Positions 2,372 to 22,733 of a stretch of 64,000 bases of DNA are shown here, piece after piece. The notes under the pieces are model-generated. The model saw nothing but the letters and a program-made list of their open reading frames with translations, did no database searches and was not told the origin of the DNA. Where the stretch lies: assembly GCF_014960965.1 (NCBI RefSeq), contig NZ_CP063169.1:4311581-4375580 (forward strand), in the 5' to 3' direction. Numbering within the stretch: position 1 is the stretch's first letter; the number at the start of each line of letters is the position of its first letter. This DNA is from Ruania alkalisoli (GTDB lineage Bacteria > Actinomycetota > Actinomycetes > Actinomycetales > Beutenbergiaceae). The position numbers and the translations under genes were made by a program.

Positions 2372-3673
2372 TCACCAGCCGTCGAGGTCAAGCTGGCGAG
2401 CCTGGTTCTCCACATCACGGTCATAGTTGGCTGCGGCCTCCTCAGCGCTCCGAATCCCGGAACCCACCTCGACCGTGATGTTGGCCAAGTTGGGCCCCTT
2501 GATCGGGGAGAGAAACTCCAGCGCGGGGGCCGTGTTGCCCTCATCGACGTACGCCTGGACGTCCTGCAGCAACGGGGTGACGTCGTCAGGCAGCTCGCAG
2601 GAGTTCGCATACGGTCCGCTCGGCGCCCCGGTTTCGTTGAAGATGTCGCACGCGTCCGAGGTGTTGAGGAAGGTCAGCAACTGCAGAGCAGCCGTACGCT
2701 CTTCCCCCTCCGCGGCGGCCGCCACGTAGGTCGCATCAGGCTGCCAGATCGTCGCCGACGTGTGTTGCGCGCTGTCAGCCGGGAGGGCCATGAACCGCAG
2801 GTCCTCGACGGCGTCCGGCGAGTTGGCCGTGATGGTGTCCAGAACCGTGGTCAGGATCGGATAGTGGGCACCGGTGCCGTCAGCCACCATCATGGCGCCA
2901 TCTTCGAACGTGGCCGAGGGGAAGTCGACGTTGAAGTAGCCGGCCTCGTATGCCTCCTGGAGGTGCCGGAATCCGGCGAGGGCGGGCTCTTCGGCGTAGA
3001 ACCTGGAGTGTGCGGTGTACTCCTGTGCCCACTGCGGATCCTGCGCGTGGACATTCGCGAAGTCGCCGAGGACGAACAGCTGGCTGGTCCACGGGTCGGC
3101 GTAGGTCTGGATGATCGGGACATATCCAGCAGCGGCGATCTGCTCGTTGTTCGCCATGAAGGCGTCCCACGACTGCGGTACCTCCAGGCCCAGCTCGTCG
3201 TAGACCGGCTGGCTGTAGACGATGCCGCCGGCGAGGGAGGTGCCGAACGGGGCTCCATAGACACCATTCTCGGTACTGACAACGGATCGGAAATCCTCGG
3301 TCAGATCGTCGATCCAGGTTTCCCCGGACAGGTCGACCAGCGTGGCGTCCGGGTTGAGCGCCTGCAGCAGCGAGCCTGAGTTGTAGGTGAACACTTCGGC
3401 CATCTCCCCGGTGGCGAGGCGGGTCTTGACGACGTTGACCCCGTCGTCGCCGCTGGGCCGGGTGTCATGGTTGACGACGATCCCGGAGTGCGTCGCCTCG
3501 AACTCCTCGATCAGGGCGGCGGCCAGCTCCGACGTCTGCTCGTCGCTGCTGGTCAGCCAGGTGATCTCGATGGTGCCGTCCTCACTTTGATGGGAGGAAC
3601 AGGCGGCCGCGGCAGCCAGGCTGACGGCAGTTGCGAGAGCCCCGAGGGGTTTCGGCGTGAGGATCCTGGTCAT
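2372..3673 (-). CDS. Extracellular solute-binding lipoprotein, ABC sugar type (family 1)
   Basis: The 433-residue product starts with a basic N-terminus, a hydrophobic stretch and a lipobox ending AAAAC (Cys about residue 25), so it should be lipid-anchored outside the membrane. The mature part (ITWLTSSDEQTSELAAALIEEFEATHSGI) is typical of family 1 sugar-binding proteins of CUT1 importers. It is the last gene of the minus-strand sulfatase operon, 56 bp after the preceding sulfatase. No CUT1 permease or ATPase is present in the window, so either its partners are encoded elsewhere or it serves another transporter. Sugar specificity is inferred only from context. Confidence 0.85.
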   Translation of the reverse strand: MTRILTPKPLGALATAVSLAAAAACSSHQSEDGTIEITWLTSSDEQTSELAAALIEEFEATHSGIVVNHDTRPSGDDGVNVVKTRLATGEMAEVFTYNSGSLLQALNPDATLVDLSGETWIDDLTEDFRSVVSTENGVYGAPFGTSLAGGIVYSQPVYDELGLEVPQSWDAFMANNEQIAAAGYVPIIQTYADPWTSQLFVLGDFANVHAQDPQWAQEYTAHSRFYAEEPALAGFRHLQEAYEAGYFNVDFPSATFEDGAMMVADGTGAHYPILTTVLDTITANSPDAVEDLRFMALPADSAQHTSATIWQPDATYVAAAAEGEERTAALQLLTFLNTSDACDIFNETGAPSGPYANSCELPDDVTPLLQDVQAYVDEGNTAPALEFLSPIKGPNLANITVEVGSGIRSAEEAAANYDRDVENQARQLDLDGW

Positions 3674-3729: not shown

Positions 3730-5139
3730 TCAGTCGTGCACGCTTCCCGCGAGCTTGCGTCCGTCGAGCAGTTGCGTGCGCACCCAGTCGTTGTCGACGG
3801 TGCGGTCACCGTCGGCCAACAAGTCGTCGTACAGCTGACGCCGCAGACCGGCCAGCACAGCGCTCGCGGAACTGTCACCGATGCGGTTGTCGAGCTCGTC
3901 GGGATCACTGTGAAGGTCGTACAGCTCGTCGACGTCCGTCGGATTCCAGATGTACTTCCACCGTCGGTCCCGGATCATCCGCTGGACGTAGAGGCCGAAC
4001 TGCTGCCCGTTGTAGGTGCTCACCACGTGATCTCGCGCGGAGAGAGCCTCGTTGACGTGCCATCGGCCGCCGTCGGGTTCGACCAGAGGTGCGCCGTGGG
4101 TGGGCGTGCCGTCATCGCCGAGCACGCGGTAGAGCAGGGTGGCCAGATCGAGCGTGTTGTGCACGAACGCATCATTGATCTCCCCGGCGGGCACTGTGCC
4201 CGGCCAGGAGAGCACGAGTGGAACGCGAACGACGTCGTCGTACATCACGTGGTGCTTGTCGATCATCCGATGGGAGCCGCACATGTCCCCGTGATCACTG
4301 GTGTAGATCACGAGCGTGTCCTCGAGCTGGCCCGTCTCGGCGATCGTGGTCATGATGCGGCCGATGGCGGCATCCATCTGGGTGATGCTCGCGTAGTACC
4401 GCGACACCATCGGCGCCCAGTCCTCCCAGGTGAAGTTCTCTACGCCCCAGCTGTGGAGCTGCTGACGCTGGATGTAGGGCTTGCCGGCAAACGACTCCGC
4501 AAAGCTCCCCCACGGCGGGATCTCACGAGCCGGGTACTGATCGGCGAACTCGGCAGTCGGCTGGCACGGCAGATGCGGCTCGACGAAGTCCACCCGGACG
4601 TGCCACGGCTGCCGAGTACTGCGGGTGATGAACTCCGCGGCACGGTCGGCCGACCAGTGCGTCCTGCTGTCCTCGGTGGGCACGGGGTCGATGCCACCGA
4701 ACCACCCGCCGTCGACGTGCGCCCCGGGGTGACGATGCGCCCGCCGCTGGTCATAGGCCTCCAGCGGGACGTACTCGTCGTACCCGAAGTCCCGTGGATC
4801 GGCATCGGCGTGGACGTGCCATTTTCCGATGTACCGACTCCGGTAGCCACGGGATGGGAGGAGTCGGGACCAGGTCATCGCCCCGGGGTCGAGCTGTGTG
4901 CCCTTCGGGCCGAGGTCGTAGTTCCACAGTCCGCCGACGTACTCCGGCCGCAAGCCGGTCAGGAGCGACTGTCGGGCCGGCACGCACAGTGGGATCGGGG
5001 TGAAAGCGCTGTCGAATCGAGTGCCGGATCGGGCGAGCGCATCGAGGGTGGGAGTGCGCACCGGGCAACGTTGCGCGTACCCGGCGCAGTCCCACCGGTG
5101 CTGGTCAGAGACGATGAGCAGGATGTTCGGGGAGGTCAC
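3730..5139 (-). CDS. Cysteine-type sulfatase (arylsulfatase family)
   Basis: A 469-residue S1-family sulfatase. The N-terminal NILLIVSDQHRWD supplies the first metal ligands, and LCVPARQSLLTG (Cys about residue 52) is the CxPxR signature in which the Cys is converted to formylglycine. A second metal site, YTSDHGDMCGSH, lies in the middle of the protein. The protein begins directly at MTSPNILL with no signal peptide, which implies cytoplasmic desulfation of an imported substrate. It lies between a Tat-exported protein and the sugar-binding lipoprotein. The substrate linkage cannot be read from sequence. Confidence 0.92.
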   Translation of the reverse strand: MTSPNILLIVSDQHRWDCAGYAQRCPVRTPTLDALARSGTRFDSAFTPIPLCVPARQSLLTGLRPEYVGGLWNYDLGPKGTQLDPGAMTWSRLLPSRGYRSRYIGKWHVHADADPRDFGYDEYVPLEAYDQRRAHRHPGAHVDGGWFGGIDPVPTEDSRTHWSADRAAEFITRSTRQPWHVRVDFVEPHLPCQPTAEFADQYPAREIPPWGSFAESFAGKPYIQRQQLHSWGVENFTWEDWAPMVSRYYASITQMDAAIGRIMTTIAETGQLEDTLVIYTSDHGDMCGSHRMIDKHHVMYDDVVRVPLVLSWPGTVPAGEINDAFVHNTLDLATLLYRVLGDDGTPTHGAPLVEPDGGRWHVNEALSARDHVVSTYNGQQFGLYVQRMIRDRRWKYIWNPTDVDELYDLHSDPDELDNRIGDSSASAVLAGLRRQLYDDLLADGDRTVDNDWVRTQLLDGRKLAGSVHD

Positions 5140-5210
5140 GGCGCCCTTCAGTGATCGAGATGGTGGGCGTGGACCCAGCAGAAGGTGCCGCGTGGGTCCA
5201 CGCCCCGGGA

Positions 5211-6368
5211 CTACCGGCGCCGGGCGGCCGCACCCCTCGCCAACTCGCGGAAGACCCGCATCTGGCTGGCGCCTTCGGGCGGGAGCGGCCCGAGATCGTC
5301 CGGGGTGGAGTGGTCCGGATAGGGGTGGAACGGCCAGAGGATGTACCGATCCGCCGCACCCCCGTGATCGACATAGGTCGCGATCCCTTCCAGGACCAGG
5401 CGCCGGAACTCGTTGTTGCTCACCCGACCGGCACGCCCATCAGTGCACTGGATCCCATAGGTGATTCCGAGGCTCTTCGCGTACTGCTCGACCTCGATCA
5501 TCTTCTCCCAGGTCATCACCCCACTCGGGCTCTCGAGTTCCAGACGCGGATGCTCGAACGGCTTATCGAAGTGAATGAAGTCCAGCTCGTGCCCCGCCGA
5601 ACGCAACTCGCTCTGCACCCAGGCCCAGGTCTCCCGCCACGGCGGATGAATCTCGGGATTGGTGAGCGGAGTGATCAAACCGATCCGCACACCAGGGAAC
5701 TCACCTCTGACCTGATCGTTGAACTCCACCACATCCTGGATACGACGCTCCATCGAATAGCCCAGAAACCTGCCCGGACCCGGCTTGCTCAACACGCTCT
5801 GCAACATGATGTCCGTCAGGTTGAACCCGGCTGCGCGTATCTGGCGTAGGTTGCTGATCGTGGCCGAGAAGTCCGGCGGCCCGTCCGGAACCTCGCCGGT
5901 CTCCTTGTAGGTGTGCCACCACCACGTCGTCGCCTGGGTGACGTTGAAGGCGAAGTTCATATCGGCGTGGGCCGCCGCCATCTTGTCGAGGACTGCCGGT
6001 TCGAACTTCACCTCGTCCGCGTAGTTGTCGCCGGCGCCGAGCTGGCCGAAGGCAAAGGTGTGCATCGCGCGGCGAGCATGCTTCCAGGTGTCGAGGCTGT
6101 CATACCGGGACTCAAGGTCGGGTGGGGCTGCCCCACCGCCCTGGCCGAGGTTGTTGTCCTGATACCAGAACTCCGGCAGTCGTTCCGACGCGTCAGTTGC
6201 CGCGCCGTTGACGGCGGAAGCGTGTGGAGCGTTCAGCGATCCGGCGGCCAAGGCGCCCGCCAACGCCACACCTCCCGTAGCGAGAGCTTGGCGCCGGGTC
6301 GGTCCTCGGTCGTTACATGTCGCTCGTGACGTCGTCGTCATCTCTTCTCCTTGGGTGTGGGTTGTCAT
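5211..6368 (-). CDS. Tat-exported protein of an unrecognised family, copy 1 (putative polysaccharide-active enzyme)
   Basis: This 385-residue protein has a twin-arginine signal (RRQALATGGVALAGALAAG, near residues 25-45) and an Ala-rich cleavage region. The mature part starts with PEFWYQDNNLGQGGG. The C-terminal half has strand-like segments (RIGLITP, LDFIHFDKPFEHP, ITYGIQCTD, YILWPFHPYP) with acidic, His and Trp residues at their ends, which resembles a TIM-barrel glycosidase; that fold is my inference. I do not recognise the family. Its ATG overlaps the stop of the adjacent paralogue by 4 bp. Residues from about 180 to 375 are identical, also in DNA, to the paralogue. An internal ATG nine codons downstream is an alternative start. 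Confidence 0.8.
   Translation of the reverse strand: MTTHTQGEEMTTTSRATCNDRGPTRRQALATGGVALAGALAAGSLNAPHASAVNGAATDASERLPEFWYQDNNLGQGGGAAPPDLESRYDSLDTWKHARRAMHTFAFGQLGAGDNYADEVKFEPAVLDKMAAAHADMNFAFNVTQATTWWWHTYKETGEVPDGPPDFSATISNLRQIRAAGFNLTDIMLQSVLSKPGPGRFLGYSMERRIQDVVEFNDQVRGEFPGVRIGLITPLTNPEIHPPWRETWAWVQSELRSAGHELDFIHFDKPFEHPRLELESPSGVMTWEKMIEVEQYAKSLGITYGIQCTDGRAGRVSNNEFRRLVLEGIATYVDHGGAADRYILWPFHPYPDHSTPDDLGPLPPEGASQMRVFRELARGAAARRR
5245..5831. repeat. 587-bp exact duplicate, copy in Tat gene 1
   Basis: Read base by base, this block is identical to 6420-7006 at an offset of 1175 bp. Sequence on both sides diverges abruptly. It encodes the C-terminal half of the Tat-exported protein. Confidence 0.92.
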
Positions 6369-7477
6369 TGCGTCTGGTTGGCTCGGGGCGCGTGTTGCGC
6401 GGCGGCGCCCGCCGCGATCTCGCGGAAGACCCGCATCTGGCTGGCGCCTTCGGGCGGGAGCGGCCCGAGATCGTCCGGGGTGGAGTGGTCCGGATAGGGG
6501 TGGAACGGCCAGAGGATGTACCGATCCGCCGCACCCCCGTGATCGACATAGGTCGCGATCCCTTCCAGGACCAGGCGCCGGAACTCGTTGTTGCTCACCC
6601 GACCGGCACGCCCATCAGTGCACTGGATCCCATAGGTGATTCCGAGGCTCTTCGCGTACTGCTCGACCTCGATCATCTTCTCCCAGGTCATCACCCCACT
6701 CGGGCTCTCGAGTTCCAGACGCGGATGCTCGAACGGCTTATCGAAGTGAATGAAGTCCAGCTCGTGCCCCGCCGAACGCAACTCGCTCTGCACCCAGGCC
6801 CAGGTCTCCCGCCACGGCGGATGAATCTCGGGATTGGTGAGCGGAGTGATCAAACCGATCCGCACACCAGGGAACTCACCTCTGACCTGATCGTTGAACT
6901 CCACCACATCCTGGATACGACGCTCCATCGAATAGCCCAGAAACCTGCCCGGACCCGGCTTGCTCAACACGCTCTGCAACATGATGTCCGTCAGGTTGAA
7001 CCCGGCGGAGACCAGATCACGCAGTTCATTGATCGTTCTGGTGAAGTTCGGGCGCCCCGGCGGAATCTCTCCCGTCTGGCGGTAGTACCCCCACCACCAC
7101 GTGGTCGCCTGCGTCACGTTGTAGGCGAAGTGCTGGTCTGCGTGTGCGGCCGCCATCGAGGCCAGGAGGGTCGGATCGTCACGGAGCCCCTGCTTGATGA
7201 GGGCGTTCTGGCCGATGGAGAAGGTGTGCATACGATCCCGGGCCTTGTCCCAGGCCGCCAGGTCGTCGTAGCGAGCCCGGAAGTCAGGCGGAACTCCGCC
7301 GCCCTGGCCGAGGTTGTTGTCCTGATACCAGAACTCCGGCACGCTGTCGGTCTGCGAGGCTGCGCGTGCAGACGTCGCCACGGACGGGGACGCCGTCGCC
7401 ATACCGACCGCCGCCGCGCCTATCGTGGCGCCCGCGGTCGCAATGACCTGCCGCCTGCTGAGTGCATGCGTGTTCAT
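6365..7477 (-). CDS. Tat-exported protein of an unrecognised family, copy 2
   Basis: A 370-residue paralogue of the neighbouring gene. It starts with a Tat signal (SRRQVIATAGATIGAAAVGMA) and the same PEFWYQDNNLGQGGG opening. The region between about residues 55 and 157 differs from copy 1 (for example PPGRPNFTRTINELRDL), while residues about 158 to 353 are identical. It follows a sulfatase gene in the operon and overlaps copy 1 by 4 bp, so the two are made together. Export with sulfatases and a rhamnosidase nearby suggests a role in attacking a sulfated polymer outside the cell, but no catalytic residues can be assigned with confidence. Confidence 0.8.
   Translation of the reverse strand: MNTHALSRRQVIATAGATIGAAAVGMATASPSVATSARAASQTDSVPEFWYQDNNLGQGGGVPPDFRARYDDLAAWDKARDRMHTFSIGQNALIKQGLRDDPTLLASMAAAHADQHFAYNVTQATTWWWGYYRQTGEIPPGRPNFTRTINELRDLVSAGFNLTDIMLQSVLSKPGPGRFLGYSMERRIQDVVEFNDQVRGEFPGVRIGLITPLTNPEIHPPWRETWAWVQSELRSAGHELDFIHFDKPFEHPRLELESPSGVMTWEKMIEVEQYAKSLGITYGIQCTDGRAGRVSNNEFRRLVLEGIATYVDHGGAADRYILWPFHPYPDHSTPDDLGPLPPEGASQMRVFREIAAGAAAQHAPRANQTQ
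6420..7006. repeat. 587-bp exact duplicate, copy in Tat gene 2
   Basis: Partner of the block at 5245-5831. No synonymous difference was seen, which points to recent gene conversion or partial duplication. Confidence 0.92.
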
Positions 7478-7519
7478 TCGATTCCTCCTGTGTCTCCGTT
7501 GATCAGGCAGGTGCCCGTG

Positions 7520-9079
7520 CTAGGTGAGCACGGGGTCGTGGCACACGGTGGCCGGGTTCTCGGGAAATCCGGTGATACCGCGCGACTTGTCGAACTGATA
7601 GATCCGGGTGCGCTCCCACACCTCGTACGGCTGCGTCCACAGATGTGTGCCTTCGGCCCCATCGACCAAGGCTGCCGAGCAGCCCTCAGCGATCAGGTCC
7701 TCGATCAAGGCACGGGTGAGTTCGGCGACCACGCCGGGGTGCTCGTGCTGCAGCGCTGTCAGCTCGTCCGGGTCGGATTCGACGTCGAAGAGCAATCGAT
7801 GGCCACCGTTGGCGAGGAAGATCAGCTTCCATCGATCCTGCACAACCATCGCCTTGAACCGCCGGGTCCGTGGCCTGCCGTGATAGCCGATCAGGCGACG
7901 GCGGGGCGCACCTCGACCTAGCAGTGTTCCCAGGACATCGTGCCCCTGACGCAGGTCCGGACGTCCAGCAGCCGTTGTGCAGATCCCGAAGATGTCCGTG
8001 AGGCAGACCAGGTCAGCACATGCCTGATCCGCAGGGAGCATCCGTGGCCAGCTCAGCAGGAACGGGATTCTGGTGGAGGCTTCGAAGAAGCTCTCTTTCT
8101 GCCAGCCAGAGTGATCGCCCAGAAGGTCCCCGTGGTCGGAGACGAAGCAGATCAGCACATTGTCCGGATCCGGGAGACGATCGACCGCATCCAGGATCGT
8201 GCCGATACAGGCGTCGATGTAGCTGATCTCGCCGTAATAGCGAGCTTTCAGGGACCGCGCCCGGTCGTCGTCGACGTTCTCGGCGAACGTCATCGCGTTC
8301 ATCCACGGCAACTGCTGGTCGAGGTGGTCGACGTCGAGGTCTCCACGCACAGGTAGCGGCATGCGGTCCGGGTCGTACATGCGGTGATACGGCATCGGCG
8401 GGGCAAACGGCGGGTGCGGGCCGATGAACGAGACCGCACCGAAGAAGGGGCGCGGATCTGGCTGTTCGATCTGCTCGACGGCCCGGTCGGCGGCCCACGC
8501 CTCGACCGTCAGGCTCGCTGGAAGCGGGCTCGTCTGGGGCATGTAGTACATCTCGGTGCGTTCACCCATCAGGGCATCCACCCAGTCGTACTCGGCGTGC
8601 TCGGTCGAGATCCACGATGCGTACGAGTCCCGGGCCCGCTGATCGGGCGTCTCGTACTGTTCCTCACTGTGCAGGTGCACCTCGAAACCCACGTCAGCGT
8701 CCCACGGGCTGGTGTGGAACTTGCCGATCCCGAACGTTCGGTAACCGCGCTCTCTCATCGCTTCGGCCAGGTACGGGCCCTGCTCCGCCCTCAGACGCTC
8801 ATGACGACCTGGCGGAAGGCGGTTGTCCCAGATGTCGGTTCGGGTGGGTTCGCAGCCGGACCGGAGGGTATACCGCGCCGGGACGCATACGGGCGTGGTG
8901 GAGTACCCGCGCTCGAAGGTGAGCCCGCGCCGTACCAGCCGGTCCAGGTGGGGCGTGTGGATCTCGGTGTTTCCTCGACAGGCGATGGTGTCGAACCGCT
9001 GCTGGTCCGTCATGATCAGCAGCACATGAGGGCGATCATCCGCACCCACACGCGTGCGTCCCGCGGCGCTACGGCTCAT
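7520..9079 (-). CDS. Cysteine-type sulfatase
   Basis: I place the start at the ATG at 9079 because it overlaps the upstream stop (ATGA) and leaves a 519-residue protein; a longer frame from 9124 would run into the previous gene. VLLIMTDQQRFD gives the N-terminal metal ligands and PVCVPARYTLRSG (Cys about residue 65) is the formylglycine motif. FVSDHGDLLGDHSGWQKESFFEAS is the second conserved block, characteristic of the choline-sulfatase/phosphonate-monoester-hydrolase-like branch. There is no signal peptide. It lies between the trehalase-like hydrolase and the Tat-exported pair and is one of six sulfatases in the locus. Confidence 0.92.
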   Translation of the reverse strand: MSRSAAGRTRVGADDRPHVLLIMTDQQRFDTIACRGNTEIHTPHLDRLVRRGLTFERGYSTTPVCVPARYTLRSGCEPTRTDIWDNRLPPGRHERLRAEQGPYLAEAMRERGYRTFGIGKFHTSPWDADVGFEVHLHSEEQYETPDQRARDSYASWISTEHAEYDWVDALMGERTEMYYMPQTSPLPASLTVEAWAADRAVEQIEQPDPRPFFGAVSFIGPHPPFAPPMPYHRMYDPDRMPLPVRGDLDVDHLDQQLPWMNAMTFAENVDDDRARSLKARYYGEISYIDACIGTILDAVDRLPDPDNVLICFVSDHGDLLGDHSGWQKESFFEASTRIPFLLSWPRMLPADQACADLVCLTDIFGICTTAAGRPDLRQGHDVLGTLLGRGAPRRRLIGYHGRPRTRRFKAMVVQDRWKLIFLANGGHRLLFDVESDPDELTALQHEHPGVVAELTRALIEDLIAEGCSAALVDGAEGTHLWTQPYEVWERTRIYQFDKSRGITGFPENPATVCHDPVLT

Positions 9080-10356
9080 CGGAGATCCCCGGATGGCGTC
9101 GGCAGGTCGAGATCTCTCAGCCACCAGTCCGCCCCGTGCTCGAGGTCGGTCACCAGTTGCGGCAGCATCAGTCCCCAGCTCCCGATACCGCGCGCGGCCA
9201 GACCTTCACCGGATTCTGCGCTGAAGTTCTCGAACAACGCGCCATGCTCGTCGAGGGCGTTGGCGTGTACTGCCAGGATCCGCTCCGCGACCGTCCATGC
9301 GTGATCGCGGTAGCCGTACCGGGACAGATAGTGCGCTGCGAAGTAGGAGTGCAGTGCCCAGATCGGCCCCTGCCAGTTGGAACACGTCGCCGTCTCACCG
9401 GCTGGTCCCTGCCATGGGCCGTGCCCCATGGGCATAGCGAGCCCGTTCACGGCGTTCGAGTAGTGCACATCGGACCTGCTCAGCGAGCGGATTCCGTAGT
9501 CGCTCCACAGGTGCTCCGGTGCCAGCACGTACCGTTCGATCACCCGTTGGGCTCGATCCTCGGGGACGAGGCCGAGCCAGAGGGGCCACAGGTTCGACGC
9601 GTGCACTGAGCGGATGGGGTGTGACTCGTCTCGTCGTAGCGGAGGTATGTAGAGGCTGTAGTAGTAGTCGTCCTCGCCATCCCAGAGCACGCGGCCGATG
9701 CTCGCGGTGAGGCGCTGTGCGAGGGCACGGTGCCGTCGAACTCGTCCGTGGTCTCCGGCGCGCTCGGCGAGCCAGGCGAACGCCGTGTGCTCGAGGACCA
9801 TCTGGGCGTTCAGGTCGACCGCCTGCACGGCATTGGGCTCCCATGCCCAGTTCGCCGTCGCATTGTCAGCGAATCCCTCATCGACGTGGGTCCAGGTGAG
9901 AAGGCCATCTCGACCGAGCTGGTGGATATGGCGGTAGTCGAGATAGGACTCGATACGTTCCAAACCGTCAGATCCGAGCCAGTCGATCGAGTTCGTCTCG
10001 CGGGAGAGCACGAAGGCTCCAGTCGCGAGAAAAGGACGTACCTGATATGGCGGAGCGCTGTACCGGTCCCGGCCGATCCGTCTCTGCCCCTTTCCGTCCG
10101 GGCTGATGTGTTCGATCAGGTTGAGCAGGCTGTCACGCAACGGTTCCGGGTCGCCGTCGATGAGATACGCGGCACCAGCCCAGACGGCATCCCAGTCGGT
10201 GAGATCGGGATAGGTCGTGCCTGCTCCGGCCGAGAGATAGGGCCGCGTGAGCAGCCCGTCGGCCGGACGCAGCAGATCAGGCTTGACCTGCATGCGGTGA
10301 GCACCGATCAGATCGGCGTCCCGCGCGAGCTTGGTGCGCTCGTCGGGGGTCGGCAT
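9076..10356 (-). CDS. Trehalase/GH63-like (alpha/alpha)6-barrel glycoside hydrolase
   Basis: This 426-residue protein has features of the trehalase, glucosylglycerate hydrolase and debranching clan: an alternating helical pattern, EGFADNATANWAWEPNAVQAVDLNAQ in the middle, and a C-terminal SNWQGPIWALHSYFAAHYL that corresponds to the NWRGPxW signature of GH63-type enzymes. It has no signal peptide, so it should act in the cytoplasm on an imported oligosaccharide. It overlaps the downstream sulfatase start by 4 bp and follows the oligopeptide-type binding protein by about 40 bp. The sugar cleaved is unknown; a glycosidase for a sulfated or acidic sugar would fit the neighbours. Confidence 0.75.
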   Translation of the reverse strand: MPTPDERTKLARDADLIGAHRMQVKPDLLRPADGLLTRPYLSAGAGTTYPDLTDWDAVWAGAAYLIDGDPEPLRDSLLNLIEHISPDGKGQRRIGRDRYSAPPYQVRPFLATGAFVLSRETNSIDWLGSDGLERIESYLDYRHIHQLGRDGLLTWTHVDEGFADNATANWAWEPNAVQAVDLNAQMVLEHTAFAWLAERAGDHGRVRRHRALAQRLTASIGRVLWDGEDDYYYSLYIPPLRRDESHPIRSVHASNLWPLWLGLVPEDRAQRVIERYVLAPEHLWSDYGIRSLSRSDVHYSNAVNGLAMPMGHGPWQGPAGETATCSNWQGPIWALHSYFAAHYLSRYGYRDHAWTVAERILAVHANALDEHGALFENFSAESGEGLAARGIGSWGLMLPQLVTDLEHGADWWLRDLDLPTPSGDLR

Positions 10357-10396
10357 GGAAACTCCTCGCTCGTCGTGGATCGTGCCTGCCGGGAGG

Positions 10397-12376
10397 TCAG
10401 CTACGGAAGTACTGACAGGGGTTGGTCGTGGCAGGATTCGAATACGCGCCGGTGGTGAGTTCGGCAGGAACGTTGTGGAAGTCGTTCTTGACGATTCCGA
10501 CTCCGCCCTCCCACAAGGTCACTCCGATGGTGTAGAACTCCTCCTTTGCGATGGCGAGGATCTCCTGCATCAGCGCGTTCTGATCGTCGGCGGACGCCGT
10601 CGTCGTGATCTGGTCGTAGAGGTCCATCTGCCGCCGAACGGCCTCGGGAGGCTCCTGCCCCGACTCGCCACGGCTGGCGTACCACTGCGCCCACGGGACG
10701 GCGTACCGACTGAACGTGTCGTAGGGAAAGTAGAGGCTGGGGTGCAGCAGTGCGTTCAGGCCACCGACTGCGAAATGGACCGCCGCGTCGTGATGATTGC
10801 CGGCCTGGCGTTCCAGGAACAGGGACATGTCTTCGGGCGAGACCGACACCTCGATCCCGACAGCCAGCCACTGTTGCCGGACGAGCTCCATCGTGTCCAC
10901 GTCGGGACCACGCTGGGAAGCGACCTCGACGTCGAAGGAGATCGGATTGCCGTCCGGACCGAGGCGCATTCCGTCACTGTTGGTCTCCGAGTACCCGGCC
11001 CGGTCGAGATGCTCGTTCGCCAGGTCGAGGTCGAACTCGGTGTACTGCGTGGCCATCTCCTCGTCGTAGAAGTCGGACTCTGGCCGCGGAGCAGCTTGGA
11101 AGGGCTCCCCTTGGCGGGCGTAGACCGCATCGATGATCGTCTGGCGGTCGATCGCGTGTGAGAGACCGATCCGGAAGTCCTTGTTGTTGAAGATCTCACG
11201 CTTGACGGGGTCCTGATGCGAGAGGTTGAGATGGATCACCGGCACCGTGGAGTGCGACTTCACGGTGGTGACGAAGTGATAGTCGGCGGACTCCTGGTTG
11301 TCGGCGAGAAGCGGCCTGTTCGCGGCATCGCCGATGTTGGGAAAGTGGAAGTCGATCTCGCCGTTGACGGCGTTGAGCACCAGGGTCTCGGTCTCGGACA
11401 CGACCGCGTAGCGCACCTCGTCGAGGTAGGGCAGCTGGCTCCCGTCCGGATCGACCTTCCAGTAGTACGGATTGCGGCGGGCAACCAGCTCTTGGACGTC
11501 CTCGTTCACGCCGTGGTCAAGGCTCCACCCGCACAGGGTGGGCAACTCGGCGTTGTTGAAGCGGGTGGTGAACGTGCCCCCCTTGGCCTCGAACAGCTCG
11601 ACCCAGGTGCTCAGACCCGCATCCGAGATCGTGGAGTCGATGTCCTCGGCAAAGTCCGGGTGGAACTGCTGCAGGTAGTGCTTCGGGACTCGGGTGATCA
11701 GGTCCCCCTCCTGGGCTAGCTTGGCGAGGAACAGCCCGTTCGGTTCGTCGAAGATGAAGGTGACTGTCTGCTCGTCGACCTTCTGGACCGTGACCGGGGC
11801 ACCGGCCGAGGTGAGCCAGTTGGCCTTCGCCGGCGTGAGGTCCTCGTTCAGGAAGACAGCCTCGTACCAGAACATGATGTCGTCGGCGGTGAAAGGCTCG
11901 CCATCCGACCAGCGCATCCCGTTGCGGAGCCGGAACGTGTACTCCGTGCCCTCGTCGTTGTACTCGAACGACTCGGCGACGTTCGCCGTGACTCCAGCCG
12001 CTGTGAGGTCGGTGGTGTTGGGGAGGAATCGGACCAGGTGCTCGTAGCCAATGGTGTCCTCGACCCATGCCGACGCGTTCGCCTGCTTCAGGACAGCCGT
12101 TCGCCAGGCGCCACCGTAGCGCCCGACCTCGTCGTTCGGTTCGACGACGAGTGGGGTGCTGGGGAGGCGTTCTTCGACCGGAGGAAGCTCTCCGGCTTCG
12201 ACCTGCGCGGCGAGATCCGGGGCCTCTCGGCCTTTCGCGCCCGTTGGCTCGGTGGTTCCCGGGTCGGTGTCGTCGAGCATGTCGCACCCGCCGAGAGCTA
12301 TAGCCGTGGCCATCGTCCCGCCTCCCCAGGCGAGGAACTGACGGCGAGGAAGTGTGGAAGGTCTGGTCTGCATCAT
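10397..12376 (-). CDS. Opp/Dpp-type substrate-binding Tat-lipoprotein (family 5)
   Basis: I start at the double ATG at 12371-12376, preceded by an AAAGAGG-like ribosome site, which gives 659 residues. It opens with a twin-arginine motif (LPRRQFLAWGGG) and a lipobox ending LGGC, so it is probably a Tat-secreted lipoprotein. The body (YTFRLRNGMRWSDGEPFTADD, then VPVIHLNLSHQDPVKREIF) is typical of family 5 binding proteins used for peptides, and in many bacteria also for oligosaccharides. It is divergent from the matching permeases. Context suggests it captures oligosaccharides rather than peptides. Confidence 0.9.
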   Translation of the reverse strand: MMQTRPSTLPRRQFLAWGGGTMATAIALGGCDMLDDTDPGTTEPTGAKGREAPDLAAQVEAGELPPVEERLPSTPLVVEPNDEVGRYGGAWRTAVLKQANASAWVEDTIGYEHLVRFLPNTTDLTAAGVTANVAESFEYNDEGTEYTFRLRNGMRWSDGEPFTADDIMFWYEAVFLNEDLTPAKANWLTSAGAPVTVQKVDEQTVTFIFDEPNGLFLAKLAQEGDLITRVPKHYLQQFHPDFAEDIDSTISDAGLSTWVELFEAKGGTFTTRFNNAELPTLCGWSLDHGVNEDVQELVARRNPYYWKVDPDGSQLPYLDEVRYAVVSETETLVLNAVNGEIDFHFPNIGDAANRPLLADNQESADYHFVTTVKSHSTVPVIHLNLSHQDPVKREIFNNKDFRIGLSHAIDRQTIIDAVYARQGEPFQAAPRPESDFYDEEMATQYTEFDLDLANEHLDRAGYSETNSDGMRLGPDGNPISFDVEVASQRGPDVDTMELVRQQWLAVGIEVSVSPEDMSLFLERQAGNHHDAAVHFAVGGLNALLHPSLYFPYDTFSRYAVPWAQWYASRGESGQEPPEAVRRQMDLYDQITTTASADDQNALMQEILAIAKEEFYTIGVTLWEGGVGIVKNDFHNVPAELTTGAYSNPATTNPCQYFRS

Positions 12377-12709
12377 CGATCTCGGCCTCTTTGCTTGTCG
12401 ACGGAACTGGGACGCCGCTGTCGCCGTCCTGGGCTGCCGAGACGGCACTACACGCCTTCCCAGCAGTCTCGATACGTTGCAATTCTGTTGCGTGACACCG
12501 ATCCACAATGCCTTGCGCTGCCTGACCTCTACCGCGTGATCTAGCGGTTTCGTGCGACCTAGCGGCTGTGACACTGCCGAACCGGTTGGCACGAAAGTAC
12601 TCTGATACGATACAAAGCGCAACTGTCAGTGGCGACACACGCAAGGAAGGATCTCGATGATGCGACCGGCCACTCCGTGCCGCACCCTCAGGGCGGGGGG
12701 CTACTGCTC
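12377..12709. promoter_or_regulatory. Divergent promoter region of the sulfatase/transport locus
   Basis: This gap separates the binding-protein operon (minus) from the permease operon (plus). It contains a TGATACGATACA site at 12603-12614, an AACCGGTT palindrome at 12580-12587 and two direct copies of CTAGCGG (near 12541 and 12559). A possible plus-strand -35 TTGGCA at 12586-12591 stands 17 bp before GATACA. On the minus strand TTGCGC, 17 bp, TACTTT is a possible promoter over the same site. These promoter calls are tentative. Confidence 0.5.
12603..12614. promoter_or_regulatory. Candidate LacI-type operator TGATACGATACA
   Basis: It matches TGAWWCGAWWCA, shared with 22563-22574 and 23826-23837. 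It lies between the two divergent arms, within or beside the likely -10 region. The dyad symmetry here is poor, so the call depends on the other two copies. Confidence 0.45.
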
Positions 12710-12716
12710 GTGCTGA
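12657..12716 (+). CDS. Possible 19-residue leader peptide upstream of the permease
   Basis: A very good ribosome site (AAGGAAGG) is followed after 7-8 bp by ATGATG, but this frame stops after 19 codons and the peptide ends YCSC. The stop at 12714-12716 overlaps the GTG start of the permease at 12710. This could be a translationally coupled leader, or chance spacing in front of a poorly defined permease start. Confidence 0.25.
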   Translation: MMRPATPCRTLRAGGYCSC

Positions 12717-13663
12717 AGTTCCTTGCGCGTCGGTTGGTGTATATGGTGCCGACGTTGTTGTTGATCTCGGTGGCCTCGTTTGTGATCATTCAGTTGCCGC
12801 CGGGTGATTATGCGACGTCGTATGTGGCCCGGTTGGAGGCTGAGGGGCAGGCGGTGGACACCGCGCAGCTGGCGGCGTTGCGGGAGCGGTTCGGGTTGGG
12901 GGATCCGATCTGGGTGCAGTACTGGAAGTGGATCTCGGGGATCCTGCTGCATGGGGACTTCGGGTATTCGTTCGACTATGCCGCCCCCGTATCGGGGTTG
13001 TTGGCCGACCGGTTGCCGCTGACGGTGATCTTGTCGATCTCGACGTTGTTGTTCACGTGGGCGGTGGCGTTGCCGATCGGGGTGTACTCGGCGTTGAAGC
13101 AGTACTCCCCCGGTGACTACATCGTGACGACGTTGGGGTTTTTGGGGTTGGCGACTCCGAACTTCCTGCTGGCGTTGATCATGATGTGGTTCGCGTTCTC
13201 CACGTTCGGGTTGAGTGTGGGCAAGAACAACCTGCCCACGTTCCTCATCGCGATCGTCGTGTTGGGCACTGCCGGGACGGCGGGGTTGATCCGGATCTTG
13301 CGGGCGAACCTGCTCGATGAGCTGCGCAAACCGTATGTGGTCGCCGCCCGGGCTCAGGGGATGGCCGAAGGGCCGCTGCTGCTGCGCTACCCGCTGCGGG
13401 TCGCGCTGAACCCGTTCATCTCCACCATCGGATGGTTACTGCCCGGGATCATCGGCGGTGAAGTGATCGTGGCCCAGGTCGCGAACCTGAACACCATCGG
13501 CCCGCTGCTGCTGGGGGCGCTACGCAGCCAGGACATGTACCTAGCCGGGTCGATCATCCTGATCACCGCGGTGCTCACGGTGATCGGGACCCTGCTGTCG
13601 GATCTGGCCCTGGCCTGGGCCGACCCGAGAGTCCGGCTACGCACCGTGGGAGGTGCCGCATGA
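12710..13663 (+). CDS. Opp/Dpp-type ABC transporter permease (DppB-like)
   Basis: Starting at the GTG at 12710 gives 317 residues beginning VLKFLARRLVYMVPTLLLIS, the usual N-terminus of DppB/OppB permeases. A longer frame from 12629 would add an atypical hydrophilic extension. Several membrane helices are clear, and the RAQGMAEGPLLLRYPLRVALNP segment near the end is the EAA-type coupling helix that contacts the ATPase. Its stop overlaps the next permease gene (ATGA). Together with the downstream permease and fused ATPase it forms the import complex for the binding protein encoded divergently. Confidence 0.88.
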   Translation: MLKFLARRLVYMVPTLLLISVASFVIIQLPPGDYATSYVARLEAEGQAVDTAQLAALRERFGLGDPIWVQYWKWISGILLHGDFGYSFDYAAPVSGLLADRLPLTVILSISTLLFTWAVALPIGVYSALKQYSPGDYIVTTLGFLGLATPNFLLALIMMWFAFSTFGLSVGKNNLPTFLIAIVVLGTAGTAGLIRILRANLLDELRKPYVVAARAQGMAEGPLLLRYPLRVALNPFISTIGWLLPGIIGGEVIVAQVANLNTIGPLLLGALRSQDMYLAGSIILITAVLTVIGTLLSDLALAWADPRVRLRTVGGAA

Positions 13664-14871
13664 GCGACCAGACCAGCCTCCCGGTCCCCGGGTCGAGCGG
13701 TCCATCACAGACGACACTCGGTGACCCGCCCGACGTGCCCACCAAGCCGAGCACCGCCCGGCGCGGCAAGAGCAGCGGGCAGGCCACGGCCTCCCAGTGG
13801 CGCTTGATCTGGCGGCGGTTCCGCAAGCACAAGCTGGCGATGATCGGCCTCACGGTGACCGGGTTCCTCTACCTGATCGCCGCGTTCGCGGGGTTCCTCG
13901 CCCCGTATACGACCACCGATCTGTCGGCTCAGCACACCTACGCCCCACCCACCTCGCTGCACCTGGTCGACACCAGTGGTGGGTCGTGGGACTGGGGGTT
14001 GCACTACTACGGCTACTTCGTGGAGCAGGACCCGGACACGTTGGCCCTGACCTACACCGTCGATGAGACCGCGAAGGTGCCGGTCGAGTTCTTCGCCCAA
14101 GGATCGACGTATGAGTTCTGGGGGCTGTTCACCACCAATGTGCACCTGCTCGGCCCAGCCGACCCGGGCACGGAGCACCCGATGTATCTCCTCGGCGCGG
14201 ACCGCCTCGGGCACGACTTGTTGTCGTTGATCATCCACGGCACCCGCATCTCCATGTCCGTGGGGCTGGTCGGAGTCACCCTCGCCTTCCTGTTGGGCAT
14301 CACCCTCGGTGGGGTATCCGGGTTCGTCGGCGGGAAGGTCGACACGATCATCCAACGCATCATCGAGCTGTTCATGTCGATCCCCACGCTGCCGTTGTGG
14401 TTGGGCTTGGCCGCCGCGATCCCCGGCGAATGGGGGCCAGTCACCCGGTATGTCGCGATCACCGTCGTGCTCTCCCTGGTCGGCTGGACCGGACTAGCCC
14501 GAGAAGTCCGCGGCCGGTTCCTATCCCTGCGGGAAGAGGACTTCGTCACCGCTGCCCGCCTCGACGGGGCCAAACAGCCGGCGATCATCTTCTCCCACAT
14601 GCTGCCCTCCTTCACCTCCCACCTGATCGCCACCCTCACGTTGTCGATCCCGGCGATGATCCTCGCCGAGACCGCGCTGTCCTTCCTCGGTCTCGGACTT
14701 CAGCCGCCGACGGTCTCCTGGGGTGTGCTGCTCCAAGAAGCACAGAACCTGCGCGTGATCGCCTCCGCCCCCTGGTTACTACTGCCCGGCGCAGCCGTCG
14801 TCGCAGCTGTGCTCTCACTGAACTTCCTCGGCGACGGCCTGCGCGACAGCGCCGACCCCTACCGATCATGA
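13660..14871 (+). CDS. Opp/Dpp-type ABC transporter permease (DppC-like)
   Basis: A 403-residue second permease. After a hydrophilic start it carries WRRFRKHKLAMIGLTVTGFLYLIAAFAGFLAPY, the standard DppC opening helix. A long extramembrane insertion (about residues 85-180) precedes LGADRLGHDLLSLIIHGTRISMSVG, and the EAA loop (AARLDGAKQPAIIFSHMLPS) comes later. The insertion makes it longer than peptide-type DppC and resembles the large periplasmic loop of oligosaccharide-associated relatives. ATGA overlaps link it to both neighbours. Confidence 0.9.
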   Translation: MSDQTSLPVPGSSGPSQTTLGDPPDVPTKPSTARRGKSSGQATASQWRLIWRRFRKHKLAMIGLTVTGFLYLIAAFAGFLAPYTTTDLSAQHTYAPPTSLHLVDTSGGSWDWGLHYYGYFVEQDPDTLALTYTVDETAKVPVEFFAQGSTYEFWGLFTTNVHLLGPADPGTEHPMYLLGADRLGHDLLSLIIHGTRISMSVGLVGVTLAFLLGITLGGVSGFVGGKVDTIIQRIIELFMSIPTLPLWLGLAAAIPGEWGPVTRYVAITVVLSLVGWTGLAREVRGRFLSLREEDFVTAARLDGAKQPAIIFSHMLPSFTSHLIATLTLSIPAMILAETALSFLGLGLQPPTVSWGVLLQEAQNLRVIASAPWLLLPGAAVVAAVLSLNFLGDGLRDSADPYRS

Positions 14872-17144
14872 CGGGACGAGCAATGACTTCTCACGCCCTC
14901 AGCCAGACCAGCAATGACACACCTGCCGGCCCGGTCACCAGCGAGGCCGTGCTCAGGGTGGAGGACCTACGCACCTACTTCCACACCGATGAGGGGGTGG
15001 TCAAGGCCGCCGACGGCGTCACCTTCGACGTCACCCGAGGCCGCACGACCTGCCTGGTCGGAGAATCCGGGTGCGGCAAATCGATCACCGCACGCTCCAT
15101 CGCCGGCCTCGTGCTGCCACCGGGCCGGATCGAGCGCGGTCACGCCTGGTTCCAGCCTGACACTGATGCCGACCCGGTGGATCTGGCCGCCTTGGACCCG
15201 ACCGGGGAACAAATCCGCAGCATCCGCGGGGGCGACATCGGGTTCGTGTTCCAGGAACCCGGAGCCTCCCTGTCACCGATGTACACCATCGGCACCCAGC
15301 TCGCGAGAGCCATCCGGTTGCACCAACCCATCAGCAAAGCTGAGGCGAAAGAGCAGGCAATCGAGCACCTGGCCCGAGTCGGGATCCCCAGCCCACACAC
15401 GAGGTTCGACGCCTACCCCTTCCAACTCTCCGGCGGCATGAACCAACGCGCCATGATCGCCATCGCCTTAGCGAACGACCCCGCGTTGCTCATCGCGGAC
15501 GAACCCACCACCGCCCTGGACGTGACCACCCAAGCCCGCATCCTCGACCTCCTCGCCAACCTGCAAGAAGAGACCGGGATGTCGATGCTGTTCATCACCC
15601 ACGACCTCGGCGTCGTCGCCGAAATCGCCGACGACGTCAGCGTCATGTACCTAGGCACCGTCGCCGAACGCGGCTCGGTCACCGACATCTTCGACCGCCC
15701 CCAACACCCCTACACCCAAGCCCTCCTCGAATCCATCCCCACCATCACCACCGACGGCACCAGCGAGGAGACCAGCGAGGAGACCAGCGACGGAGCCGGT
15801 GATGGGGGCCGCTTGCCGGCCATCCCGGGCAACGTCCCCCACCCCAACCAACGCCCCACCGGCTGCCCCTTCCACACCCGCTGCCAGTTCGCCATGCCCG
15901 GCCTCTGCGATGAGACCACCCCACACCCGATCGCCCTCGACGACGGGCGACTGGTCCGCTGCCACCTACGCGACCCCGACATCGAGAACCTCCCCCCGCA
16001 GGTCGTCACCGAACCCGACTCCGCCGAAAGCCCCGCACCCGCCCCGACCGCCTCACCCGCCCCACACGAGGCCCAACCCTCTGTAGATGAGGGGGAGCCG
16101 ATCATGTCGATCCGGGACCTGCAGGTGCACTTCCCCATCAAGTCCGGCTTCTTCGGCCGCACCACCGGACACGTGCACGCCGTCGACGGCGTGGACCTGA
16201 CCATCCACCGCGGTGAGACCCTTGGCCTCGTGGGCGAGTCCGGGTGCGGGAAAACCACCCTCGGACGCACCATCGTCCGCGCCCTGGACCCCACCGCAGG
16301 AACCATCACCTACCAAGGCGACACCAGCGAGGTGGACCTCACCAGCCTGGACAACCGCGCCCTGACCCCCTACCGGGGCCAGATCCGGATGATCTTCCAA
16401 GACCCCTTCACCTCGGTCAACCCCCGCAAAACCCTCCTCCAGATCATCGGCGAACCCCTACGCCGGCTCGGTGATGGCCAACCCCCCGGTGCGATCGCCG
16501 ACCAGGTAGGTCACATGCTCACCCGGGTGGGGCTACGCCCCGAATACATGCACCGCTACCCCCACGCCTTCTCCGGCGGCGAACGCCAACGCGTCAACAT
16601 CGCCCGCGCCCTGATCACCCGCCCCCGACTCGTCGTCGCCGACGAAGCCGTCTCCGCACTCGACGTCTCAGTCCGGGCCCAAATCCTCAACCTCCTCGCC
16701 GACCTCCAACAGGAATACAACCTCACCTACCTCTTCATCTCCCACGACCTGTCCGTCGTCGAACACCTCTGCGACCGCGTCGCCGTCATGTACCTCGGCA
16801 AAGTCGTCGAACAAGCCCCCACCAGGGAACTGTTCACCACCCCCCGACACCCCTACACCGAAGCCCTCCTCTCCGCGGTTCCGGTGCCAGATCCGCACCG
16901 CCGTGATCAGCGCCGGATCAGGTTGAACGACGAGCTTCCCGACCCGACCAACCCACCGGCCGGCTGCCCGTTCCACACCAGGTGCCCCCACCGCCGCGAT
17001 GAACGCTGCGACGACGAACGCCCCACCCTGGAACTGCTGGAACCCGCGCATCGCACCTCCTGCCACTACCCCCTCACCCCCAACCAAGACGGCCCACCCA
17101 CCAGAACACAGACCGGCACCACCGAACAGGACACACACGCATGA
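14868..17144 (+). CDS. Fused DppD-DppF double ATP-binding subunit
   Basis: The protein has 758 residues if it starts at the ATG at 14868, which overlaps the upstream stop (ATGA); the ATG at 14883 with a GGGACGAG site is an alternative. It contains two complete ABC domains. The first has Walker A GESGCGKS near residue 65 and signature LSGGMNQRAMIA. The second has GESGCGKT and signature FSGGERQRVNIA. Each ends in the Cys-rich oligopeptide-transporter module (GCPFHTRC). A short (TSEE)2-TSDG linker sits after the first ABC core. It powers the divergently paired importer. Confidence 0.92.
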   Translation: MTGRAMTSHALSQTSNDTPAGPVTSEAVLRVEDLRTYFHTDEGVVKAADGVTFDVTRGRTTCLVGESGCGKSITARSIAGLVLPPGRIERGHAWFQPDTDADPVDLAALDPTGEQIRSIRGGDIGFVFQEPGASLSPMYTIGTQLARAIRLHQPISKAEAKEQAIEHLARVGIPSPHTRFDAYPFQLSGGMNQRAMIAIALANDPALLIADEPTTALDVTTQARILDLLANLQEETGMSMLFITHDLGVVAEIADDVSVMYLGTVAERGSVTDIFDRPQHPYTQALLESIPTITTDGTSEETSEETSDGAGDGGRLPAIPGNVPHPNQRPTGCPFHTRCQFAMPGLCDETTPHPIALDDGRLVRCHLRDPDIENLPPQVVTEPDSAESPAPAPTASPAPHEAQPSVDEGEPIMSIRDLQVHFPIKSGFFGRTTGHVHAVDGVDLTIHRGETLGLVGESGCGKTTLGRTIVRALDPTAGTITYQGDTSEVDLTSLDNRALTPYRGQIRMIFQDPFTSVNPRKTLLQIIGEPLRRLGDGQPPGAIADQVGHMLTRVGLRPEYMHRYPHAFSGGERQRVNIARALITRPRLVVADEAVSALDVSVRAQILNLLADLQQEYNLTYLFISHDLSVVEHLCDRVAVMYLGKVVEQAPTRELFTTPRHPYTEALLSAVPVPDPHRRDQRRIRLNDELPDPTNPPAGCPFHTRCPHRRDERCDDERPTLELLEPAHRTSCHYPLTPNQDGPPTRTQTGTTEQDTHA

Positions 17145-19528
17145 GCAGCCCCACCCCGGAGACCGGCTCGCTCACACCGCAGACCAGCGCCACCCCGCTG
17201 GACGGGGCCACCATGATCACCCCCGATCAGGACTTCCACGGTGCCCCCCTGCTCCGGGTAGAACACGCCCTGGAGTCCGGACACGGCGACGTGGTCACCG
17301 CGACGCTGACCGCGACCGGGCAAGGAATCTTCGAAGCCTTCGTCAACGGCACACCCGTGGGTCCAGACGTACTCTCCCCCGGCTGGTCCAGCTACCAATG
17401 GCGGCTGCGCTGGCGTACCTGGGACATCACCGAACTGGTCCCGGACTCAGGACCAGTGGTGGTCGGTGCAGCCCTGGGTAATGGGTGGCACCGCGGCAGG
17501 CTCGGGTTCACCGGCGGCCGTGCCCTCTACGGCGATCAGCTCGCCTTCATGGCCCGCCTCGACGTCACCTTCGCCGACGGGCACGTCCAGACCATCGTGA
17601 CCGACGAGACTTGGCGAGCTGCACCGTCGGCCACCACCGCGAACGACCTCTACGACGGGCAGACGATCGACGCCCGCCGCCACCAACCCGGCTGGAACAC
17701 CACCGGCTTCGACGACACCACCTGGGCAGGCGTGCACGAGGTCGCCTTCGACCCCACCACCCTCACCGCCCCCATCGGACCACCCGTCATCCGGCACGAG
17801 ACCATCCGCCCAGTGCGGATCTGGACCTCCCCCACGGGCAAGACACTGCTGGACTTCGGGCAGAACCTCGTCGGCTGGACCCGGACCACGATCACCGCAC
17901 CAGCCGGCACCGAGATCACCATCCGCCACGCCGAAGTCCTCGAACACGACGAGCTCGGCACCCGGCCACTGCGCACCGCCGAAGCCACCGACCGCTACAT
18001 CACCTCCGGCGCTCAGGACGTCTTCGAACCGACCTTCACCTTCCACGGCTTCCGCTACGCCGAGATCACCGGATGGCCCGACCACCTCACCCACCAACTC
18101 ACCAACGGCGCGATCGAAGCCATCGTCGTCAGCTCCGACCTGGACCGCACCGGCTACTTCGAATGCTCCAATCCCGACCTGAACCAACTCCACGAGAACG
18201 TCCTCTGGTCCCTGCGCGGCAACTTCCTCGACCTGCCCACCGACTGCCCGCAACGCGATGAACGACTCGGCTGGACCGGCGACATCGCCGTCTTCGCGCC
18301 CACCGCCGCCTACCTCTACGACACCCAGGACTTCCTCGCCGACTGGCTCACCGACCTCGCCGCCGAACAACACGCACAGCACGGTCGCGTCCCGCTGGTT
18401 GTGCCCGATGTGTTCCTCGCCGGTCCCACAGACCCGGCCCGTGACCCCGAAAAGGACCGGGCCGTCACGGCGATCTGGGGTGACGCCGCCGTCTGGGTCC
18501 CCTGGACCCTCTACCAGGCCTACGGCAACCCTGACATCCTCAAGGCCCAGTACGACTCCATGACCGCGCACACGCGCGGGGTAGCACGTTGCCTGTCGGA
18601 CACGGGGCGGTGGGATACCGGCTTCCAGTTCGGTGACTGGCTCGACCCCGATGCGCCGGCCGACCAACCCGGCGCCGGAAAGGCCGATGTCGGCGTGGTG
18701 GCGACTGCGTGCGCGTACCGAACGTTCGATCTGATGGCCCAGATCGCGGCCATCCTCGGACACAGCGACGAACCCGAGTTCCGTGTCCTCGCCGAACGCG
18801 CGCTACGAGGCTTCCAGACCCACTACGTCACCGACGACGGGCGCATCCACAGCGACTGCACCACCGTCTACGCCCTGGCGATCGAGTTCGGACTCCTCGA
18901 CGACCAGCAGCGCCACATCGCCGGGGAACGCCTCGCTGAACTGGTGGCCGAATCCGGGTACCGCATCTCCACCGGATTCGCCGGCACACCCGTCATCACC
19001 GCCGCCCTGAGCAGCACCGGTCACACCGAGACCGCCTACCGGCTCCTGCTCGAACGCAAGTGCCCCTCCTGGCTCTACCCCGTCACCATGGGCGCCACCA
19101 CCATCTGGGAACGCTGGAACTCCATGCTCCCCGACGGCACCATCAACCCCGGCACCATGACCAGCTTCAACCACTACGCCCTCGGCGCCGTCGCCCACTG
19201 GCTGCACACCGTCGTCGCAGGCATCACCCCCGCCGAACCCGGCTACTCCCGCATCCGCATCGCCCCCAGGCCCGGCGGAGGCCTCACCTGGGCCAAAGCC
19301 AGCCTGCACACCCCCCACGGCGAGATCCGCACCCACTGGCACCACGACGGCGACCAGTTGATCCTGGAGACCACCATCCCCGAAGGCACCACCGCCGTCG
19401 TAGAACTACCCGGAACCGCCACGGCTACCGTGGGCCCAGGGTGCCATCGATTCACCGCTACGTGCCTGTCGCCCGCGTCGATGGTGGCGAGCACGCCCGC
19501 ACCTCGTGGCGCCGGAGGAGGAACGTGA
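17141..19528 (+). CDS. GH78 alpha-L-rhamnosidase
   Basis: The 795-residue protein has the order expected for bacterial GH78: N-terminal beta-sandwich domains, LLDFGQNLVGWTR at about 235-250, then TDCPQRDERLGWTGDIAVF at about 365-385 containing the catalytic-acid region, and an (alpha/alpha)6 barrel with ATTIWERWNSMLPDGT near 650-665. These enzymes invert alpha-L-rhamnosyl bonds. No signal peptide is present, so it should act on imported oligosaccharides. It overlaps both neighbours by 4 bp, between the importer ATPase and a sulfatase, which is the best hint that the substrate contains rhamnose. Confidence 0.93.
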   Translation: MSSPTPETGSLTPQTSATPLDGATMITPDQDFHGAPLLRVEHALESGHGDVVTATLTATGQGIFEAFVNGTPVGPDVLSPGWSSYQWRLRWRTWDITELVPDSGPVVVGAALGNGWHRGRLGFTGGRALYGDQLAFMARLDVTFADGHVQTIVTDETWRAAPSATTANDLYDGQTIDARRHQPGWNTTGFDDTTWAGVHEVAFDPTTLTAPIGPPVIRHETIRPVRIWTSPTGKTLLDFGQNLVGWTRTTITAPAGTEITIRHAEVLEHDELGTRPLRTAEATDRYITSGAQDVFEPTFTFHGFRYAEITGWPDHLTHQLTNGAIEAIVVSSDLDRTGYFECSNPDLNQLHENVLWSLRGNFLDLPTDCPQRDERLGWTGDIAVFAPTAAYLYDTQDFLADWLTDLAAEQHAQHGRVPLVVPDVFLAGPTDPARDPEKDRAVTAIWGDAAVWVPWTLYQAYGNPDILKAQYDSMTAHTRGVARCLSDTGRWDTGFQFGDWLDPDAPADQPGAGKADVGVVATACAYRTFDLMAQIAAILGHSDEPEFRVLAERALRGFQTHYVTDDGRIHSDCTTVYALAIEFGLLDDQQRHIAGERLAELVAESGYRISTGFAGTPVITAALSSTGHTETAYRLLLERKCPSWLYPVTMGATTIWERWNSMLPDGTINPGTMTSFNHYALGAVAHWLHTVVAGITPAEPGYSRIRIAPRPGGGLTWAKASLHTPHGEIRTHWHHDGDQLILETTIPEGTTAVVELPGTATATVGPGCHRFTATCLSPASMVASTPAPRGAGGGT

Positions 19529-22533: not shown

Positions 22534-22562
22534 AGTTGTCCCTCCGCTGTGAAAAAGTTCTT

Positions 22563-22574: not shown

Positions 22575-22579
22575 CGAAC

Positions 22580-22713: not shown

Positions 22714-22733
22714 AGCAAGGACGAGGAGAGGGT

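Follow-up and report, generated by a model that had tools for sequence, protein, structure and literature searches.

Introduction

Sulfated glycans resist degradation. Bacteria able to use sulfated methyl pentoses have been reported to carry GH78 rhamnosidases next to sulfatases, and the Verrucomicrobiota loci of this kind bring together many sulfatases, a GH78 rhamnosidase, and other glycosidases (PMC8857213). The same elements occur in a locus of Ruania alkalisoli, within the window analysed here (the whole stretch of 64,000 nucleotides). Unlike the Verrucomicrobiota loci, it is actinobacterial, possesses an Opp-type importer and sulfatases without signal peptides, and carries a pair of unnamed, putatively exported barrel proteins where an enzyme of initial attack would be expected. 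A locus of this type has lacked a recognised enzyme for the first extracellular cut.

The explanation that we favour, to which we assign roughly even chances, is that the pair represents an undescribed family of exported (β/α)8 carbohydrate-active proteins, probably cleaving a sulfated and perhaps rhamnose-containing glycan before uptake. Export and the barrel fold are read from sequence and from prediction, and the link to carbohydrate from the gene neighbourhood, one fusion to a binding module, and the phage context; the cleavage of a sulfated glycan is what we infer, with the substrate taken from the neighbouring genes only.

Results

The gene pair and its neighbourhood

The two genes sit in a minus-strand run with two sulfatases, a six-hairpin glycosidase, and two binding proteins (Table 1). 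Their coding status is backed by the GC content by codon position (GC3 0.80 and 0.82), and the orthologues suggest that the true start of P0001 is probably an internal ATG at 6341, which would give a protein of 376 aa. Both proteins have twin-arginine leaders, TRRQALATGG in P0001 and SRRQVIATAG in P0002, and in both the motif is followed by an Ala-rich hydrophobic stretch without a lipobox, as in a Tat substrate. The RR of the leader is invariant in 7/7 members from the genus, and a distant member (L036) also has a leader, TRRDFL; Tat-type export of the pair is thus supported by the motif and its conservation. The first-pass annotation had placed the two ORFs as we find them, on the minus strand, with Tat-type leaders and with PEFWYQDNNLGQGGG common to both. 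It had also regarded them as the only obviously exported non-lipoprotein products of the locus, and indeed the sulfatase block encodes no other soluble non-lipoprotein with an N-terminal export-like segment.

The CxPxR motif is present in 6/6 sulfatases of the window, none of which has a visible signal peptide, and adjacent PF00884 sulfatases with this motif characterise the region as a sulfatase-linked catabolic locus. The SBP_bac_5 ORF is over-extended at its start; the likely real N-terminus, PRRQFLAWGGGTMATAIALGGCDML, lies inside the ORF and reads as that of a Tat lipoprotein. Just beyond the SBP_bac_1 gene, two Gfo/Idh/MocA oxidoreductases are encoded at 276-2275, both without an export signal. 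Elsewhere in the window, the start of a minus-strand ORF at 36608-37630 carries the repeated peptide MSLRNPGVGGVRDEGRWSGVPEGSDQRAP, possibly an over-extension across a DNA repeat, and a 995-aa protein encoded on the minus strand at 44808-47795, ~37 kb away from the pair, shows a weak Laminin_G_3 match (E 3e-5).

Table 1. Positions in the window of the pair, the neighbouring genes, and the segments discussed in the text.
Feature	Position	Strand	Remarks
SBP_bac_1 lipoprotein (solute-binding protein)	2372..3673	-	
S1-type sulfatase	3730..5139	-	PF00884; CxPxR motif CVPAR; no signal peptide seen
Exchanged island	5000..22700		~17.7 kb; compared with sister species G004
P0001	5211..6368	-	385 aa ORF; family member, 'a-type' with LGAGDNYADEVK insertion; Tat leader; predicted (β/α)8 barrel
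588-bp stretch in P0001	5244..5831	-	identical to 6419-7006
P0002	6365..7477	-	370 aa; family member, 'b-type'; Tat leader; AlphaFold2 barrel
588-bp stretch in P0002	6419..7006	-	identical to 5244-5831
S1-type sulfatase	7520..9124	-	PF00884; CVPAR; no signal peptide seen
MGH1-like / trehalase / GH63-like six-hairpin glycosidase	9076..10356	-	PF22422, PF01204
SBP_bac_5 solute-binding protein	10397..12622	-	adjoins divergent Opp/Dpp-type importer
Opp/Dpp-type ABC importer	12629..17144	+	two permeases and fused ATPases
GH78-type alpha-L-rhamnosidase	17141..19528	+	PF17389
Region with four further sulfatases and LacI regulator	19060..26656	both	
Sulfatase ORF	19060-21159	+	over-extended at start
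Sulfatase ORF	21160-22623	-	
LacI regulator	22734-23786	+	
Sulfatase ORF	23853-25292	+	
Sulfatase ORF	25103-26656	+	over-extended

Distribution of the family

Seven copies were found in 2/8 species of the genus, two in the genome of the window and five in the sister species G004, and none in the six other species. Outside the genus, among sampled genomes of the order (396), the class (395), and the phylum (396; the samples overlap), core members occur only in two genomes of genus g324, which belongs to another class (E ~1e-35 to 1e-46; 2/39 genomes of that class). A match in genome G003 to the full-length profile (E 7e-4, profile positions 10-117 only) was gone with the core profile. The g324 homologues share ~29% identity with the pair and stand among sulfatases: in one locus (L036) the order is sulfatase-sulfatase-member-sulfatase, and in the other (L035) a sulfatase split into two ORFs lies directly downstream of the member. 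The sulfatases of both g324 loci carry lipoprotein leaders, so sulfatase and barrel would act together outside the cell.

Within the genus, sulfatase linkage is seen in the window and at L010 and L012/L013. Co-occurrence with sulfatases, which the first-pass annotation had proposed as a check, is seen at all genus and g324 loci, across two actinobacterial classes. The carriers are also the most sulfatase-rich genomes among those compared: they have 56 and 32 PF00884 genes versus 4-23 in the others in the genus (8 genomes), and 21 and 19 versus 2-10 in g324 (six genomes counted). This comparison was made post hoc, draws on few independent events, and counts by PF00884, which also covers relatives that are not sulfatases.

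Two proteins of 620-633 aa from another actinobacterial class match the core profile weakly (per-genome E 3e-8 and 2e-8), and a profile-profile comparison (hhalign) backs their homology (probability 97%, E 3e-11). Such lipoprotein-like relatives, likewise unnamed, occur in 7/198 genomes of their class (L037, L038, L043-L047). They resemble the pair in the barrel region by profile comparison, in the strand-6 Asp, and in the equivalents of W265 and P329, but unlike the pair they mostly keep the acids on strands 3, 4, and 5. One is fused to an F5/8C domain as its tail (PF00754, 1e-9) and another has a weak CBM4_9-like tail. A homologue of 316 aa with a Sec-type leader is also encoded on the contig IMGVR_UViG_3300017598_000575 of IMG/VR (L051 10001-10951, plus strand). 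It shares 26-29% identity with the family and the motifs MQSVLSKP, FIHLDLP, and WYQDTN, and its gene follows directly on tail genes and precedes those for a DUF1353 protein and an M15-type peptidase. Besides these two, the contig encodes tape-measure and tail-tip proteins and an integrase, and this gene content points to a probably temperate phage. Nothing similar to this homologue was found in 50,697 deposited phage records, and neither scans of a genome contig collection nor tblastn searches of phages and plasmids with the family gave a match. No sulfatases were detected by tblastn near the remote relatives or the phage copy.

Predicted fold and conserved residues

The pair had been called an unrecognised family, and our searches agree: neither Pfam, NCBIfam, PHROGs, nor PDB sequences gave a significant match for the pair or the family, and we found no description of it in the literature. 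Matches to VWA_2 (E 0.24), MelC (0.04, in the signal region), and ypsA (0.016) were dismissed as chance. AlphaFold2 returned an eight-stranded β/α barrel in both of two runs, made with 7 and 9 sequences (mean pLDDT 79 and 77, pTM 0.83 and 0.82), the strands being predicted at 3-8, 40-44, 71-76, 117-123, 161-167, 197-201, 236-241, and 274-277 in core numbering (the P0002 residue number is the core number + 45). Alternation of eight strands and helices in the models supports a (β/α)8 (TIM) barrel. The PDB matches listed by Foldseek are overwhelmingly barrel enzymes, many of them sugar-acting (3-epimerases, GH10, GH79, GH53, GH1), but non-specific, at ~10% identity with TM scores mostly of 0.45-0.55; the comparison of the models therefore backs the fold and picks no family. 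The TIM barrel of the first-pass annotation agrees with both the models and the Foldseek matches, and of its suggested resemblance to a TIM-barrel glycosidase the predicted fold stands, but the catalytic Glu positions of clan GH-A are absent.

The enzymes of clan GH-A (GH10, GH53, GH79, GH30; PDB 4pmu, 6gp5, 7psh, 5ngl) share the predicted fold of the pair (Foldseek E ~1e-4 to 5e-5) and, like it, are associated with glycan-degrading genes. Where strand 4 of these enzymes ends in an Asn-Glu acid/base, all core members have LQS, VQS, or MQS, and where strand 7 ends in the Glu nucleophile there is C286 (QCTD, VCTS; FLVS in the phage copy). Membership in clan GH-A was rejected on these active-site positions. 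The xylose-isomerase-like 3-epimerases (PDB 7dz2, 3vni, 2ou4) have the best Foldseek E-values (from 6e-7) and a barrel of similar size, but the pair differs from them in being exported and in having no Pfam match; the profile PF01261 (AP_endonuc_2) matched neither the window pair (E up to 10) nor any of the seven genus members (E up to 1). Sugar 3-epimerases carry a metal tetrad of Glu, Asp, His, and Glu on strands 5-8. This tetrad is absent from the family, whose residues at these positions, aligned with the AlphaFold2 strands, are T/Y/D, D, and C, with no Glu, and membership in the xylose-isomerase-like / AP endonuclease 2 group was likewise rejected.

The invariant residues are enriched at the C-terminal ends of the strands, with 13/29 positions within -3 to +5 (hypergeometric p 0.005). 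Core members share WY..N on strand 1, QS..K on strand 4, and HxD on strand 6, where the Asp (D246 of P0002) belongs to the motif F-[IV]-H-x-D. The Asp, His, and Trp residues pointed out earlier at strand ends are real, and D246 and H244 are conserved beyond the genus, but D288 and the WWW motif are not. Only three residues stand out as shared across the superfamily alignment, the strand-6 Asp, a Trp, and a Pro, so that D246 is the single invariant acid and no conserved acid pair exists. The strand-4 acid of the remote relatives is a Gln in the core members. At core position 166 on strand 5, the remote relatives have E, five core members and the phage copy have D, both window proteins have Thr (T211 of P0002), and their two orthologues have Tyr. 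Should this residue have a catalytic role, the window pair could be altered or inactive; this is the chief reason for caution in reading the pair as enzymes.

Gene conversion and an exchanged segment

The two genes share 588 bp of identical DNA covering 196 residues, a feature absent from the first-pass annotation. Before core residue 113, the mature parts of P0001 and P0002 have 56% protein identity; from residue 113 to the end the identity is 98%, and the two are each other's closest relative in the tree. When only the core residues before 113 are used, with the signal peptide left out, two groups form, one of P0001, L010:13232, and L013:1107 and the other of P0002 and L010:14387. This conflict between the trees of the first and last parts indicates that the tandem pair existed before the two species split and that its 3' two thirds were homogenised by gene conversion; on this ground a simple recent duplication was rejected as the origin of the pair. 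The 588-bp identity represents recent gene conversion within the pair, which is under concerted evolution. In each of the tandem arrangements (window 5211-7477; L010 13232-15502; L013 1107-3306), the 3' two thirds are converted and the 5' third is still diverged, with two different front halves kept.

Compared with G004, the flanks of a segment from ~5.0 to 22.7 kb show ~88-98% DNA identity (dS 0.10-0.23) and the pair ~76-83% over most of its length (dS 0.57-0.85); the genes of 7520-22623 match another G004 locus (L013), with dS of 1.0-1.3 in the three genes checked. The segment was swapped in one of the two lineages, and the locus is a mosaic. Between orthologues of the pair, dN/dS is 0.12-0.18, and the proteins are constrained.

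Discussion

The sulfatase linkage in two classes, the F5/8C fusion, and the phage copy beside tail genes all fit a putative glycosidase role. The loss of the strand-5 acid in exactly the window pair and its orthologues, with D246 as the sole invariant acid, would also suit a degenerated enzyme that captures the sulfated glycan on the outside of the cell and hands it over to the importer, leaving the cutting to other secreted enzymes. In addition, the two species differ more in the pair than in its flanking genes, although the exchange of the island explains at least part of this. However, the strand-end cluster of WY..N, QSVL.KP, and H.D is conserved at ~27% overall identity, down to the phage, and looks like an active site, and the low dN/dS likewise speaks against such a role; we therefore regard non-catalytic capture as unlikely.

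The phage gene, placed between tail genes and a peptidase, and the remote relatives without nearby sulfatases could instead point to a hydrolase of cell-wall or capsule glycans that has nothing to do with sulfated polymers, the sulfatase linkage being secondary. We consider this quite improbable, given that every genus and g324 locus is sulfatase-linked and that Pfam gives no match to a lysozyme family. The least probable reading in our judgement is an epimerase/isomerase-like enzyme or an oxidation-dependent lyase, in which a xylose-isomerase-like barrel would work with the Gfo/Idh/MocA oxidoreductases encoded nearby. Foldseek does rank D-allulose/D-tagatose 3-epimerases first (E 6e-7 at best, TM ~0.5) and lists a C-glycoside deglycosidase further down, but the lack of a PF01261 match and of the metal tetrad argues against it, as does the lack of an export signal on the oxidoreductases.

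In the model of an exported glycan-cleaving enzyme, the folded barrel protein would be exported by Tat and would break a sulfated glycan, probably one containing rhamnose, at a glycosidic bond, by hydrolysis or elimination. The key acid would be D246, together with the WY..N residues of strand 1 and the QS..K residues of strand 4. Capture of the products would fall to the solute-binding proteins and their import to the Opp-type transporter, and desulfation and trimming would follow in the cytoplasm through the signal-less sulfatases, the six-hairpin glycosidase, and the GH78-type rhamnosidase. That the substrate contains rhamnose is suggested, by analogy, by the GH78-type gene and the reported GH78-sulfatase loci (PMC8857213), and by these only. 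The two diverged tandem copies would be kept, yet repeatedly homogenised by gene conversion. More specifically, and only tentatively, the proteins could form an unclassified family of exported, endo-acting TIM-barrel enzymes that attack sulfated glycans at an unusual active site around the strand-6 H-x-D, a family present in sulfatase loci of two actinobacterial classes and in a temperate phage.

If this is true, the gap of the first cut would be filled by an exported barrel family that accompanies sulfatases in different actinobacterial classes and is also found in a phage. A new family of glycoside hydrolases or lyases would then have a tractable candidate, and loci that current annotation misses would be accounted for.
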